DNA from: Mycobacteriales bacterium | GTDB taxonomy: Bacteria > Actinomycetota > Actinomycetes > Mycobacteriales > SCTD01 | NCBI GenBank assembly: GCA_030697205.1 | Contig: JAUYQP010000045.1 | Location: 1 to 64,000 of the forward strand | Length of the DNA: 64,000 bases | Direction: 5' to 3' | Part shown: positions 19,542 through 25,416 of the stretch, in pieces | Position numbering within the stretch: position 1 is the first letter of the stretch | How the letters are laid out: each line of letters begins with the position of its first letter | The notes under the pieces: generated by a model | Database searches by the model: none | What the model was told of the DNA's origin: nothing | Seen by the model: the letters and a program-made list of their open reading frames with translations, nothing else | Translations under genes and position numbers: made by a program

Positions 19542-20510
19542 GTGCTGAAGATCGCCGTCACCGGCTCCATCGCGACCGACCACCTCATGACCTTCGACGG
19601 GCGGTTCGCGGAGCAGATCCTCCCGGACCAGCTCGACAAGATCAGCCTCGTCTTCCTGGCCTCGGACCTGCAGGTACGCCGGGGAGGCACCGGCGCCAAC
19701 ATCGCCTTCGGGATGGGCGTGCTCGGGCAGCGCCCGCTGCTGGTCGGGTCCGTCGGGCGCGACGCCGGTGACTACCTCCAGTGGCTCGCCGACCACGGCG
19801 TCGACACCTCGGGCGTCCGGGTCAGCGAGACCCTGGCCTCGCCGCGCTTCACCGTCACCACCGACAACGACCAGAACCAGATCGGCGCCTTCTACCCCGG
19901 CGCGATGGCCGAGGCCGTCGGCATCGAGCTCGCGCCGCTCGGCGAGGTCGACCTCGTCGTCGTCGCCCCCAACGACCCCGGCGCGATGCTGCGCCACACC
20001 GCCGAGTGCACCGCCCGCGGCGTGGCCTTCGCTGCCGACCCGTCGCAGACGCTGTCCTTCCTCGACGGCGACGCGATCCGCACGCTCTGCACCGGCGCGA
20101 CCTGGCTGTTCACCAACGAGTACGAAGCCGGCCTGGTCCGCGAGAAGACCGGCTGGTCCGACGCCGACGTCCTCGAGGTGGTCGGCACCCGCGTCACGAC
20201 CCACGGCGCCGACGGCGTGGTCATCACCCGCAAGGGCGAGGACGACATCCGGGTCGGTGTCGTCCCGGCCGACGCGGTCGCGGAGCCGACCGGGGTCGGC
20301 GACGCCTTCCGGGCCGGCTTCCTGACCGGCACCTCCTGGGGCCTCGGCCTCGAGTGCGCCGCGCAGGTCGGCGCGCTGCTCGCGACCCACGTCGTGGAGA
20401 CCGTCGGCACCCAGGAGTACTCCTTCACCCCGGGGTCGTTCCTGGCCCGTCTGGCCAAGGCCTACGGCGACGAGGCCGCCGCCGAGGTCGCGCCGCACCT
20501 GTCCGCCTGA
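19542..20510 (+). CDS. PfkB-family carbohydrate/nucleoside kinase (adenosine-kinase-like)
   Basis: 322 residues. Ribokinase fold: GSIATDHLMTF at the N-terminus with substrate Asp, RRGGTGANIAFGMG near residue 47, and the catalytic anion-hole motif GVGDAFRAGF with catalytic Asp at about 248. By position (close to ctaC and the bc1 genes) and sequence it matches the mycobacterial carbohydrate kinase CbhK/adenosine kinase AdoK gene. Ribose-type or adenosine substrate both possible. Monocistronic, followed by a bidirectional hairpin. Confidence 0.88.
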   Translation: MLKIAVTGSIATDHLMTFDGRFAEQILPDQLDKISLVFLASDLQVRRGGTGANIAFGMGVLGQRPLLVGSVGRDAGDYLQWLADHGVDTSGVRVSETLASPRFTVTTDNDQNQIGAFYPGAMAEAVGIELAPLGEVDLVVVAPNDPGAMLRHTAECTARGVAFAADPSQTLSFLDGDAIRTLCTGATWLFTNEYEAGLVREKTGWSDADVLEVVGTRVTTHGADGVVITRKGEDDIRVGVVPADAVAEPTGVGDAFRAGFLTGTSWGLGLECAAQVGALLATHVVETVGTQEYSFTPGSFLARLAKAYGDEAAAEVAPHLSA

Positions 20511-20550: not shown

Positions 20551-20823
20551 TCAGTCGCCGGTCGCCGGGTCGATGACGCTGGTCACCCTCGACACCGCGT
20601 TCGCCGGGAAGCCTCCACACCGCGCGTGCTCCAGCACGGCGTCCTCGTCGTCGGCGATGTAGACGCAGTAGATCTTGTCGTCGGTGACGTAGCTCTGCTG
20701 CCACTGGACCTTCGGGCCCAGGTCGGCAAGGACGCCGTTGGACTTCTGCGCGATGGCGCGCAGCTCGTCGGCGCCGAGGTCACCGACTCCGGGGATCTCC
20801 CGCTCGATCACGTACTTGGGCAT
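20551..20823 (-). CDS. DUF4242 protein, SCO4226-like nickel-binding ferredoxin-like fold
   Basis: 90 residues starting MPKYVIEREIPGVGDL. Sequence pattern (ELRAIAQKSNGVLADLG, QWQQSYVTDDKIYCVYIADDEDAVLEHARCGGFPA) matches the DUF4242 family, whose member SCO4226 from Streptomyces binds nickel as a ferredoxin-like dimer. The ATG at 20823 has a perfect AAGGAG 8 bases upstream, which decides against the longer frame from 20838. It sits immediately downstream of the SARP-type regulator gene. Physiological role not established. Confidence 0.88.
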   Translation of the reverse strand: MPKYVIEREIPGVGDLGADELRAIAQKSNGVLADLGPKVQWQQSYVTDDKIYCVYIADDEDAVLEHARCGGFPANAVSRVTSVIDPATGD

Positions 20824-20834
20824 GACGTGCTCCT

Positions 20835-22646
20835 TCATCTGGTAGGAGACGCCACCGTGGCCCCCGCCCGTGTGAGGCGGCGTGTGAGCGCCGGGCTGTC
20901 GATCCCCAGTGCCAGGGACACCGCAGCCTCGAGCGCGCCACGCTGGCCCAGGGCGGAGCGGTGCAGCTGCGCGCGGACGACCAGCTCACGCATGTTGCCG
21001 CCGGCGGCGATGAGCTCGAGGTCGACGACCCAGGCCAGTCCCTGGCTCGGGAACACCGGGGCCAACGACGCGAGCGTGTCGAGGACCTCCGCGTGCGCGA
21101 AGCGCCAGCCGTCGGTGGCGCGGGCACCGCGCACCGCGGCGTCCAGCAGGATGTCGCGGGCGCCGTCGGCGTCACCGCGGGCGAGGGCGACCAGACCGAG
21201 GACCCGACCGGCTGTCTCCTCCCAGCAGGGGTCCCGCAGCTCGCAGCCGAGGGCGAAGGCATGGGTGGCTGCCTCCTCTGCCCGGGCCACCGCTCCAGAG
21301 GCGAGGTCCACCTCGGCGAGCAGCGCCTGCGGCCAGGGGAGCACGCTCGTCCACCCGGTCGAGCGGGCCAGCTCCCAGGCCTCCTCGAGCGGAGGTCGCG
21401 CCAGGTCGTGCTCCTCGAGCAGGACGTGCAGGCGCCCGGACATCGTCAGCGCCCACACCAGCCACCGACGGGCGCCTGCCGCGCGTGCCGAGACCACGGC
21501 GCCCTCGAGCGCGACTGCCGCCTCGCTGTAGCTGGCGAGGTCGGTCAGGCACGCCCCTCTCAGCGCCGCGACGGCGGCGGCCTCCTCGCCGCTGGTGCCC
21601 GCCAGGTGCGCAGCGTGGTCGAGCTGTCGCAGTGCCTCGGAATAGCGCGCTGCCAGGAACGCCGTGTAGCCCAGCTCGCGGTGCGCGGCGACGGCGAGCT
21701 CGGGTTCGCCCGCGGCGTCTGCCAGCGCGACGGCCCGCGCGAGGGCCGTCGCCCCCGCCTCGTCCCGACCGCGCACGGAGTGGACGAGCGCGTAGCCCAG
21801 CTCGCACAGTGCCTGCACCTCGGCGTGCAGGTCGTCGTTGTGGTGGCTGACGGCGACAGCGTCGCGCAGCCGCTCCAGGCCCACGTCGACGGCCCCCGCC
21901 GAGATGGCCGCGACGCCCGCGTCGAGGAGGGCCCGCCCCGCGGCCCGGTGCGTCGAGCGAGGTGCCGCGGGCACGGCGAGCTCCTCGTGCACGGCCCCGC
22001 TCGGTGCCACGCCGAGCTCGCGACGGAACTCCTCGGTGCACCGCCGTACGGCGTCCTCCGCCTGGGTGCGCGCCCCCGACTCCACGAGGGCCCGCACGAG
22101 CAGGACGTGCCCGGCCTCGTCCAGCGGGGCCGCCTCGACGAGCGCCCGGGCGGACGCGACCGCACCCACGGTGTCACCGACCGCCAGCCGGCCCAGGGTG
22201 GCCTCCCGCAGCACCGCCGCGCGGGTGGCCTCGAGGTGGTGACGCTCGGCGGCGAGCCACGCGTCGAAGGACGGGTTGGCAGGGAAGGACAGTCCGGCGA
22301 GCAGCGACCCCCCGTCGCGGGCGACGGCCTCCGCGTGCACCCACGAGCTCGTGGTCAGCAGCACCGCGTCCACGGTGAGGTGTCCCGGCTCGATCAGCAG
22401 GGGGTCGCCGCGGAGCGGGACGCCGGTCAGTCTCCGGGCCTCGGCGAGCGTCCACCGCAGCGCGCCCAGGGGGTCGTCGGCCTCACCGAAGAGCAGGGTG
22501 GCGGCCCGCTCGCGGGACACGGGGCGCTCGGAGAGGGCAAGCAGCGCAAGAAGCGCCCAGGTCTTGCGCCCTCGCGGTCGCGGGGCCTCCACCCCGTCGC
22601 GCTCGACGCGGGGGCGGCCGAGTAGGTGGACGACGGTCGCGGGCAC
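20835..22646 (-). CDS. SARP/BTAD-type transcriptional regulator with TPR-like repeats
   Basis: 603 residues. Residues 1-100 form an OmpR-like winged helix (LLGRPRVERDG, RGRKTWALLALLAL, LRWTLAEARRLTG); residues 110-240 are a bacterial transcriptional activation domain (FDAWLAAERHHLEATRAAVLREATL, VEAAPLDEAGHVLLVRALVE); the remainder is helical repeats of the TPR kind (AVAAHRELGYTAFLAARYSEALRQLDHA). No AAA/NB-ARC ATPase domain. Such proteins activate one or a few neighbouring operons; the DUF4242 gene 11 bp downstream and the NifS-like group upstream are candidates. The GTG at 22646 is the first start after the upstream stop. Confidence 0.82.
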   Translation of the reverse strand: MPATVVHLLGRPRVERDGVEAPRPRGRKTWALLALLALSERPVSRERAATLLFGEADDPLGALRWTLAEARRLTGVPLRGDPLLIEPGHLTVDAVLLTTSSWVHAEAVARDGGSLLAGLSFPANPSFDAWLAAERHHLEATRAAVLREATLGRLAVGDTVGAVASARALVEAAPLDEAGHVLLVRALVESGARTQAEDAVRRCTEEFRRELGVAPSGAVHEELAVPAAPRSTHRAAGRALLDAGVAAISAGAVDVGLERLRDAVAVSHHNDDLHAEVQALCELGYALVHSVRGRDEAGATALARAVALADAAGEPELAVAAHRELGYTAFLAARYSEALRQLDHAAHLAGTSGEEAAAVAALRGACLTDLASYSEAAVALEGAVVSARAAGARRWLVWALTMSGRLHVLLEEHDLARPPLEEAWELARSTGWTSVLPWPQALLAEVDLASGAVARAEEAATHAFALGCELRDPCWEETAGRVLGLVALARGDADGARDILLDAAVRGARATDGWRFAHAEVLDTLASLAPVFPSQGLAWVVDLELIAAGGNMRELVVRAQLHRSALGQRGALEAAVSLALGIDSPALTRRLTRAGATVASPTR

Positions 22647-22684: not shown

Positions 22685-23311
22685 CTAGGGGTCGCTGCGC
22701 TCGGCGTGGTCGCGCTGCGCGAGCAGCAGCCGGTCGAAGACCGCGTGGTCGGTCTCCGGCTCGAGCGTCGTCAGCGTGACCTCGTAGACGAAGCGGTCGC
22801 GGACGAAGAGCCCGTGCTGGACGCTGAACCCCTCGACCTCGTCGACGAAGGTGAAGGCGCCCGGCACCGTCGCACTGGTGAAGGTCCCGGTCGCGTCCTC
22901 GCGGCTGGACGCGAGCAGCCGGTCGGCTCCCTTGCGGGTCGCGAGCCGCACGATCACGCAGCCGTAGAGGCCCTCGTCGCCCGACCACAGGTGGCCTCGG
23001 GACGCCTCGAAGCCGAGCAGCCGCAGTCCCTGCTCGGAGGTCTGGGCCTCTGCGGCCGAGCTCGAGAAGCGGCTGGCGAAGCCGCTGACGGTCAGGTCGC
23101 CGAGCCGTGACGCGGTGTCGTCGACCCGGGTGAAGCCGCCGGGCCCCGGCAGTCGGCCCTCGAGGTCGGCGTCCGCGAGGGGCACTGCGGCGGTAGGGCT
23201 GGCGGTCGGTGCGGGGCGAGCCGAGCCGACATCGTCGGAGCCCGAACGCGCCGCGACGGTCACGAGGTCGGCGGCGACGACGAGCGCGAGGCCTGCGGCG
23301 ACGAGCCTCAC
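22685..23311 (-). CDS. Membrane-anchored protein of unknown function
   Basis: 208 residues. An uncleaved-looking N-terminal segment (VRLVAAGLALVVAADLVTVAA) anchors a Ser/Pro linker and a globular outside domain (GFASRFSSSAAEAQTSEQGLRLLGFEA, GLYGCVIVRLATRKGADRLLASSRED, GTFTSATVPGAFTFVDE). It starts with a GTG overlapping the NifS-like stop by 4 bases, so it is translationally coupled to that gene. No family recognised. Confidence 0.75.
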   Translation of the reverse strand: MRLVAAGLALVVAADLVTVAARSGSDDVGSARPAPTASPTAAVPLADADLEGRLPGPGGFTRVDDTASRLGDLTVSGFASRFSSSAAEAQTSEQGLRLLGFEASRGHLWSGDEGLYGCVIVRLATRKGADRLLASSREDATGTFTSATVPGAFTFVDEVEGFSVQHGLFVRDRFVYEVTLTTLEPETDHAVFDRLLLAQRDHAERSDP

Positions 23312-24387
23312 GGGACCGCCGCCCGCAGCTCGGCCAGCACCGGGGGCAGCACCGCGAGGAAGCGCTCGACGTCGCCGCGCGTCGTCCCGCGGTGCAGCGA
23401 CAGCCGGACCGACCCGTCCGTCGGCGCGCCCATCGCGGCCAGGACGTGAGACGGCTCGATGCTGGACGCCGAGCACGAGGACCCGCTGGACACCTGGAGG
23501 TCGCGGGCGTCCAGCGCCCGCAGCAGCTCCTCGCTGTCGACGCCCTCGCAGACCAGCGTGACCAGGTGGGGTAGCCGGTCGAGCGGGTCACCCACGGCCG
23601 TCACGCCCTCGACCCGGGCCCCGCGGACGAGGTCGACGAGAGCCCGGAGCCGGGCGTCCTCGGCCGCCGCCTCCGCGGCCGCGGCCTGGAGGCCCGCGGC
23701 GGCGGCCACGACGGCCGGGAGGTCGAGCCGGCCGGGGGAGCGGTCGGGGCGCTCGTCGTCAGGCAGCGGGGAGCGCCAGCGCGTGCCGGTCCGGACGACG
23801 AGCAGCCCGACGCCGGGCGGCCCGCCCCAGGTCCGCGCGCTGGCTGTCAGCACCGACCAGCCCGTGGGCACCGGCGCCCGGCCGAGCGCGTGGGAGGCGT
23901 CGACGAGCAGGGGTACGCCGGCCCCCGCGCAGCGGGCCGCCACGTCGGCGACGGGCTGCGTCGTACCGACCTCGTGGTTGGCCGCCTGCAGGCACACCAG
24001 CGCCCAGTCGGGGTCGACGTCGACGGGGAGGACCCGGCCGGCCGCGTCGACGGGCAGGCTCAGCCCGGCGCTGCCGGCCGCCTGCAGGACGGCGGAGTGC
24101 TCGACCGCGGAGTGCGCGACCGTCGTACCCCGTCGTGGTGCGGCTGTCCCGAGCACACCGAGGAAGGCGGCCATCGTGCCGGAGGCGGTGAAGGACACCT
24201 CGTCGGGCCGGGCCCCGACCACCTCCGCGACGGCCTCGCGGGCGGCGTCGAGGAGCAGCCGGGCGCGCCGGCCGGCACCGTGCAGGCGGGCCGGATCAGC
24301 CCAACCGTCGTCGAGCGCGGCGAGCAGGGCCGCGCGGGCGGCCGGGTGCAGCGGCGCGCCCGAGGCGGCGTCGAGGTAGACCGGCAC
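23308..24387 (-). CDS. NifS/IscS-like cysteine desulfurase homologue with no lysine
   Basis: 359 residues with class V aminotransferase layout: VYLDAASGAPLHP, SFTASGTMAAFLG, the His of VEHSAVLQAAG, ANHEVGTTQP, the PLP-binding Asp of LLVDASHALGR, and the mobile-loop cysteine in SSGSSCSASSIEPSHVL. At the Schiff-base position IscS has SAHK; here the sequence is TASARTWGGPPGVG with Thr (codon ACC), and the whole protein contains no lysine. Covalent PLP attachment is therefore not possible, though the substrate Cys is kept. Coupled to the membrane-anchored protein downstream. A true IscS/SufS must exist elsewhere if this one is inactive. Confidence 0.85.
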   Translation of the reverse strand: MPVYLDAASGAPLHPAARAALLAALDDGWADPARLHGAGRRARLLLDAAREAVAEVVGARPDEVSFTASGTMAAFLGVLGTAAPRRGTTVAHSAVEHSAVLQAAGSAGLSLPVDAAGRVLPVDVDPDWALVCLQAANHEVGTTQPVADVAARCAGAGVPLLVDASHALGRAPVPTGWSVLTASARTWGGPPGVGLLVVRTGTRWRSPLPDDERPDRSPGRLDLPAVVAAAAGLQAAAAEAAAEDARLRALVDLVRGARVEGVTAVGDPLDRLPHLVTLVCEGVDSEELLRALDARDLQVSSGSSCSASSIEPSHVLAAMGAPTDGSVRLSLHRGTTRGDVERFLAVLPPVLAELRAAVP

Positions 24388-24528: not shown

Positions 24529-24555
24529 GACCCCTCGTGAGGAAGGCCTGTGAGC

Positions 24556-25416
24556 GTGAGAGCCACCCCTCGGCGCAGCGGTGCGCGACTCGGCCTGATG
24601 GCCGCCGCGACCGCGCTGCTGGCGACCGGATGCGGCGGTCGTGAGGCCTACGAGAACACCTTCGGCCTGGGCTTCCCGAAGCCCGTCACCGACCAGGCCC
24701 AGGAGATCTACGACCTGTGGCTCGGCTCGGTCGCCGCGGCTGCCGTGGTCGGCCTCTTGGTCTGGGCGCTGATCTTCTACGCCGTCGTGCGCTTCCGGAA
24801 GACCAGCGACGACCTGCCGCGCCAGATCCGCTACAACCTCCCGGTCGAGGTGCTCTACACCGTCGTGCCGTTCGTGATCATCGCGGTGCTCTTCTACTAC
24901 ACGGTGGTCGCGCAGAACCGCGTCAACGACCTGTCCGACGAGACCGCCGGCGGCAAGCCCGACGTGACCGTCAACGTCGTCGGCTTCAAGTGGAACTGGA
25001 TGTTCCAGCACGTCGACGCGGGCGTGCAGGTCATCGGCGAGATCGAGCAGCCCGCGGTGCTGGTGCTCCCGACCGACCGCACGGTGCGCTTCGTCGAGAC
25101 CTCTCCCGACGTCATCCACTCCTTCTTCGTGCCGGCGTTCCTCTTCAAGCGCGACGTCATCCCGGGCCGCGCCAACACCTTCGAAGTGAAGATCACCAAG
25201 CCGGGTGAGTACATCGGCCGTTGCGCCGAGCTGTGCGGCGAGAAGCACGCCCGCATGACCTTCTACGTCAAGGCCGTCCCCCCGGCGGAGTACGACGCCT
25301 ACGTCGCGGGCCTCAAGGCCGACCCCGCCAACGCTCTGGAAGACAACCCCGCCGTGACGGGCGCGGTCCGCCCCGTCGTGGCCGGCACGCCGCACCCCGA
25401 GGAGGAGAAGAAGTGA
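24556..25416 (+). CDS. ctaC: Cytochrome c oxidase subunit II
   Basis: 286 residues. A signal peptide ends at LLATGCGG, consistent with lipid modification of the Cys. Two membrane helices ([34 protein letters not shown]) lead to a cupredoxin domain with the CuA ligands: His in DVIHSFFVP and [12 protein letters not shown] (two Cys, His, Met), and the aromatic FKWNWMF patch. GAGGAAGG is 9 bases from the GTG at 24556 but only 3 from the GTG at 24550, so the later start is preferred. First gene of ctaC-ctaD-ctaF, the aa3 oxidase of the bcc-aa3 supercomplex. Confidence 0.95.

Follow-up and report, generated by a model that had tools for sequence, protein, structure and literature searches.

Results

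The locus and its genes

Within the 64,000-nucleotide stretch of Mycobacteriales contig JAUYQP010000045.1 analysed here (hereafter the window), an open reading frame with a GTG start at 23308-24387 on the minus strand encodes a 359-residue cysteine desulfurase homologue of the class V aminotransferase fold that lacks the Schiff-base lysine. The coordinates and length agree with those of the preliminary description, which gave no strand; the gene runs from 24387 down to 23308. About 160 bp away, on the opposite strand and divergently oriented, lies ctaC (24550-25416, plus strand), the gene for cytochrome c oxidase subunit II, which is kept as the divergent neighbour at most related loci, and a gene for a PfkB-family carbohydrate kinase at 19542-20510 (plus strand) is also a neighbour conserved across the family. 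The place of TusA is taken by a 208-residue frame with a hydrophobic N-terminus (22685-23311, minus strand), whose GTG overlaps the desulfurase TGA (GTGA), and which has no Pfam match and no homologue among the family loci compared. Between the desulfurase locus and the kinase gene, a BTAD-domain protein (PF03704, bacterial transcriptional activator) is encoded at 20838-22604 on the minus strand; it was not seen at the equivalent place in the family loci compared. A small protein encoded at 20554-20838 (minus strand) matches the SCO4226-like nickel-responsive family (PF14026).

The genome comprises 4.02 Mb in 59 contigs. Elsewhere it encodes a lysine-bearing IscS-like paralogue (contig C15), 41% identical to the window protein, and SufS with SufU adjoining (C47), on a different contig from the lysine-less gene.

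The sole Pfam match of the window protein is PF00266 (Aminotran_5), at 106.1 bits against a curated cut-off of 21.5. NifS (TIGR03402) is its top NCBIfam model, with a score of 197.5 bits that falls far under the equivalog cut-off of 530.75; of the features expected of a NifS/IscS cysteine desulfurase (EC 2.8.1.7) the protein has the fold, as predicted, and the loop cysteine, and lacks the Schiff-base lysine and an equivalog-level score. The nearest solved sequences include those of M. tuberculosis IscS (4isy) and A. fulgidus IscS (4eb5, 4r5f). An AlphaFold2 model built from 62 aligned rows reached a pLDDT of 94.2 and a pTM of 0.92, its low stretch (residues 301-310, mean 59) being the Cys loop, and a Foldseek search with this model returned 4isy first, with TM (query) values of 0.90-0.92 to the 4isy chains, and 4eb5 seventh. 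From these scores and this ranking, a complete type I (NifS/IscS) fold is predicted.

The active site

Where E. coli IscS has K206, the window protein reads ASARTWGGPP: the codons CGG ACC (23830-23835, minus strand) specify Arg185-Thr186 in place of His/Arg-Lys, with Thr186 encoded by ACC at 23832-23830, and there is no lysine anywhere in the 359 residues. The preliminary description had reported both points and had concluded that the internal aldimine is impossible, which is certain from the sequence, since a protein with no Schiff-base lysine has neither an internal aldimine nor the usual Cα base. It was also correct that the PLP contacts and the reactive Cys loop are retained. His97 (24097-24099), the equivalent of the PLP-stacking His, and Asp163 (23899-23901), the equivalent of the Asp at the pyridine N, are both encoded on the minus strand and are invariant in lysine-less and lysine-bearing members; Asn137 is present, as are Thr71 and Ser183; and Cys305 (codon 23475-23473) lies in the SSGSSC motif of the catalytic-loop segment VSSGSSCSASSIEPS (23449-23493, minus strand). 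Residue 185, Arg in the window protein, is His in 94 of 115 lysine-bearing relatives, and residue 166, His in the window protein, is Gln in 101 of them. All four canonical paralogues checked have lysine at the Schiff-base position.

Thr186 is not a one-base error, because CGG ACC differs by two bases in each codon from CAC AAG, the commonest form among relatives (those compared read CAC AAG or CGC AAG, with one TGG AAG); this, together with the existence of 21 further lysine-less members, rules out a sequencing error. The complete absence of lysine was likewise rejected as a special trait on the basis of the lysine counts in the family and the base composition: the mode is two, and a total of zero is weak evidence in itself because 16 of 136 members have none, while lysine makes up 2.0% of the residues of called genes in the window, which has a G+C content of about 74%. 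In one orthologue (L007), the single lysine of a 440-residue stop-to-stop frame is the Schiff-base lysine.

The family and its TusA partner

Judged by both orthology and gene position, the window protein falls within a NifS/IscS-like family of actinobacteria that is encoded divergently from ctaC, with TusA adjacent or fused. Near full-length orthologues, 57-69% identical to it, occur in most genomes of its own taxonomic family (f1), and others are found across the Actinomycetes, in Micromonospora, Streptomyces, Streptosporangium, Nocardioides, Frankia and others. When neighbouring genes were clustered for 120 loci plus the window, 121 sequences in all (some loci being two records of one genome), ctaC was found at 110, the PfkB kinase at 96, ctaF at 92, an ErpA-like gene at 83 and NadA at 72; the kinase label was checked by Pfam, and the other four were assigned by reading the sequences. 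In most loci listed the desulfurase gene and ctaC are divergent.

TusA was present in 40 of 46 genomes searched, usually once and mostly encoded directly downstream of the desulfurase gene. In the deduplicated set, 106 of 115 lysine-bearing and 19 of 22 lysine-less members either carry TusA as a fusion or have it next to them on the same strand, with CPxP in every TusA stretch counted. Two of the remaining three lysine-less genes end at a contig end, which leaves TusA adjacent or fused in 19 of the 20 lysine-less members with a readable flank; the sole exception is the window, and a whole-genome search found no TusA in its genome. A neighbouring TusA is also missing from nine of the 115 lysine-bearing members. 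Three loci of the window's taxonomic family (L003, L004, L008) form a lysine-bearing subclade that has lost TusA and kept the lysine, so the two losses are separable. The desulfurase-TusA module can also vanish whole, because another genome of that family (G010) has neither a close member of the desulfurase family nor TusA.

A C-terminal tail containing CPxP is fused to the desulfurase homologue in Streptomyces, in Kitasatospora and in all eight lysine-less members of one genus; the four fused proteins that were scanned, three of them lysine-less, all gave a TusA Pfam match. In the clade of a second taxonomic family, f2 (L146, L148, L149, L154, L163-L165), the lysine-less desulfurase-TusA gene or genes are followed by an asparagine-synthetase-like gene, which we take to be asnB, and in some members of one f2 genus a sugar epimerase/isomerase-like gene lies between the two.

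Recurrence of lysine loss

Among 150 deduplicated loci, 126 have the lysine (115 of these inside the family), 22 do not, and two fragments (L022, L025) stop short of the motif and are unreadable. Lysine is thus absent from 22 of the 137 readable family members, in which it is replaced by Thr (7), Leu (7), Met (3), Ser (2), Gln (2) or Gly (1). Seventeen of the 22 belong to f2, whose named members are 'Jatrophihabitans' and 'Pseudonocardiales' assemblies at NCBI; four of the 18 members read in f1 lack the lysine, among lysine-bearing relatives, and a further family, f6, has one lysine-less member. The preliminary description had suggested aligning orthologues around ASARTWGGP to see whether Thr is fixed in a clade: loss of the lysine is uniform in f2 (17 members read), whereas the replacing residue varies among the 22, and position 186 has therefore gained no conserved new role. 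Orthologues with lysine, which that description had regarded as fatal to its case, are indeed the rule (115 of 137), but the loss is genuine and has happened repeatedly, with several origins among the 22.

A tree was built without the motif columns from 91 of 136 family rows and three outgroup rows, the 45 rows omitted being mostly lysine-bearing near-duplicates. It requires six changes at the lysine position, four of them forced by firmly supported branches, and 0% of 200 bootstrap trees had a single origin; a topology holding all 22 lysine-less members together as one clade was rejected by the AU test (p-AU 2e-5). As read from these sequences, a single bacterial family has lost the lysine on four or more occasions, and the loss is recurrent and clade-wide rather than the oddity of one gene.

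The window's genus is represented by one genome. A family match was present in 298 genomes of the order, and the motif was read in 69 among the 100 of them that were listed. The remaining genomes of the order were covered by a DNA pattern for the lysine-less motif, which demands a Trp and a non-A second base in the replaced codon, and is thus blind to Gln and to the type found at L019; within the order, 12 of 397 genomes carried a match to it. When lysine-less variants were sought outside the order with the same pattern, with the same blind spots, the sole match among 394 genomes of the class was the window's own genome, whereas the corresponding lysine-form pattern matched 99 of the 394.

Arg185, which may have been a permissive step on the way to lysine loss, is found in 21 of 22 lysine-less and 20 of 115 lysine-bearing members, but the tree supplies too few independent pairs to judge this order of events (median p 0.5). 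The motif DARTWGG (Ser183Asp, Arg185, Thr186) is common to an f1 member (L012) and to f2 members, which have different origins of lysine loss.

Conservation and selection

Across the 22 lysine-less members, in the rows that reach each site, VSSGS.C, PSHVL.AMG, His97, Asp163 and Glu139 are invariant. The main losses are Lys186 and Ser183, the latter being Asp in 18 of 22 and probably part of the PLP-phosphate site, to judge by IscS structures. At the 82 positions that are at least 97% conserved in lysine-bearing rows, lysine-less rows alter between two and nine; the window protein alters six, five of which fall at 278-351, outside the PLP site. NG86 dN/dS was 0.12-0.27 for five lysine-less pairs and 0.12-0.44 for eight lysine-bearing pairs. 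The window protein gave 0.36 and 0.42 against two relatives, comparisons in which synonymous sites are close to saturated. Normalised to ctaC, the window copy evolves fastest of 16, mildly so, at 1.10 as compared with 0.70-1.06 for lysine-bearing copies. These sequence comparisons indicate purifying selection on the lysine-less members taken together, with somewhat looser constraint on the window branch alone.

Discussion

The lysine-less proteins described here are most likely no longer desulfurases, since they can have neither the internal aldimine nor the usual Cα base, and since the K206A variant of E. coli IscS, which keeps some PLP and forms cysteine adducts, has no desulfurase activity according to the available portion of PMC9978102. 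As both the loop Cys and TusA have been retained, a role in sulfur relay or docking is indicated, in keeping with E. coli IscS, whose Cys328 loop extends from one subunit to TusA on the other (PMC2854127), and the proteins may pass sulfur on. The normal unit of the family is a desulfurase and TusA, adjacent or fused and divergent from ctaC, and its lysine-less members presumably stopped cutting L-cysteine. A persulfide could then come to the loop Cys from another desulfurase, which in the window genome would be, at a guess, SufS or the lysine-bearing IscS-like paralogue; the loop Cys would hand the persulfide to TusA, or else hold TusA or a cluster intermediate. That the desulfurase-TusA pair repeatedly became such a PLP-free relay in several lineages, from SufS or another donor to the loop Cys and on to TusA, is a proposal we put forward tentatively.

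For the window protein itself, we see about an even chance that it is a PLP-independent former desulfurase whose loop Cys relays or holds sulfur. TusA is gone from its genome, so the partner argument covers the other lysine-less members and not this one, and another acceptor has to be invoked, perhaps linked to the translationally coupled 208-residue frame. Sulfur relay, one of the functions offered in the preliminary description, thus fits the group, with its invariant Cys loop and TusA, and fits least the very protein for which it was suggested; the earlier interpretation as a whole was half right. The window copy is the most derived case, in which the lysine has been lost and the partner is gone too.

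Because that partner is gone, drift has to be taken seriously as an alternative for this species: its desulfurase may have lost the lysine and TusA, in either order, and be functionless now and drifting towards loss. It is the one lysine-less member with a readable flank and no TusA; its ctaC-normalised rate is the highest and its dN/dS of 0.36-0.42 is consistent with loosened constraint; Gln166 has become His and changes have accumulated at F278, S279, G285 and G296; and G010 lacks a close desulfurase relative and TusA alike. On the other side, the 359-codon frame is intact and the downstream frame is coupled to it, 76 of the 82 strongly conserved positions are retained, and the loop and its Cys are unaltered. 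The intact frame is weak evidence against a relic, since the lysine loss on the window branch may be recent. Weighing both sides, we think it possible, though less likely than not, that the gene is such a relic.

A lysine-less IscS is not in itself new, as archaeal cases are known. The IscS of A. fulgidus (4eb5, 4eb7, 4hvk) likewise combines the NifS/IscS fold and the loop Cys with a replaced Schiff-base lysine, and the preceding residue is changed too (SSND, as compared with SSNK in the D199K structure 4r5f). It is reported to have no desulfurase activity and to donate a Cys ligand to the cluster on IscU, and M. acetivorans has an IscS1 that also lacks the essential lysine, beside an IscS2 that is a working desulfurase, as stated in the part of PMC7585200 available to us. 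By analogy, the loop Cys of the window protein could serve as a ligand to an Fe-S cluster carried by a U-type scaffold, with no sulfur produced, and SufU is encoded in the genome. However, the scaffold gene adjoins sufS on another contig rather than the lysine-less gene, and what has been conserved next door across the family is TusA rather than a scaffold. The archaeal protein was studied with IscU, and M. acetivorans IscS1 is paired with an IscU gene in the same portion of PMC7585200, which makes no mention of TusA, whereas the family here is actinobacterial and lies beside TusA and ctaC; the substitution in A. fulgidus is Asp, whereas here it is Thr, Leu, Met, Ser, Gln or Gly, arising repeatedly within a mostly lysine-bearing family. 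We therefore regard a cluster-ligand role as improbable.

Less probable still is that the lysine-less chain forms one half of a heterodimer with a lysine-bearing paralogue, an arrangement suggested by IscS itself, where the loop Cys of one subunit acts at the partner site next to it. When TusA sits on one subunit of E. coli IscS, the Cys328 loop that reaches it comes from the other subunit, according to the available part of PMC2854127. A lysine-bearing IscS-like paralogue does exist in the window genome, but it is encoded on another contig and is 41% identical. Finally, non-covalent PLP chemistry, which the preliminary description had also entertained and in which PLP bound without a Schiff base would be served by another base such as His97, is very unlikely despite the retention of His97, Asp163, Asn137, Thr71 and Ser183 and the residual PLP binding of K206A, for that variant is inactive, Ser183 is Asp in 18 of 22 lysine-less members, and Gln183 of E. 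coli IscS, which hydrogen-bonds PLP in the accessible text of PMC9978102, has His as its equivalent in the window protein.

The PLP-independent relay that we favour can be set against two desulfurase-TusA systems that keep the lysine. The lysine-bearing actinobacterial proteins, fused to TusA in Streptomyces and Kitasatospora and neighbouring it in Micromonospora, are orthologous to the window protein by sequence and by ctaC/TusA synteny, but retain SAHKWGGP or SARKWGGP and are expected to work as desulfurases. E. coli IscS has the same fold (PDB 3lvj) and its loop Cys gives sulfur to the Cys of TusA; it retains Lys206, where the window protein has Thr186, and serves many partners. TusA of E. 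coli is encoded away from IscS. Term searches of one open-access literature collection found no account of repeated lysine loss inside a bacterial TusA-linked family.

The repeated loss of the lysine, with the loop Cys and TusA kept, offers natural replicates for what a desulfurase fold can do once its chemistry is gone, and the lysine-bearing and lysine-less TusA fusions, which share a layout, form a ready pair of constructs. There is also a caution for annotation, as some genes labelled 'cysteine desulfurase' in such bacteria are unlikely to encode desulfurases. If the relay is real, these proteins would constitute a recurrent class of pseudoenzymes in sulfur trafficking.
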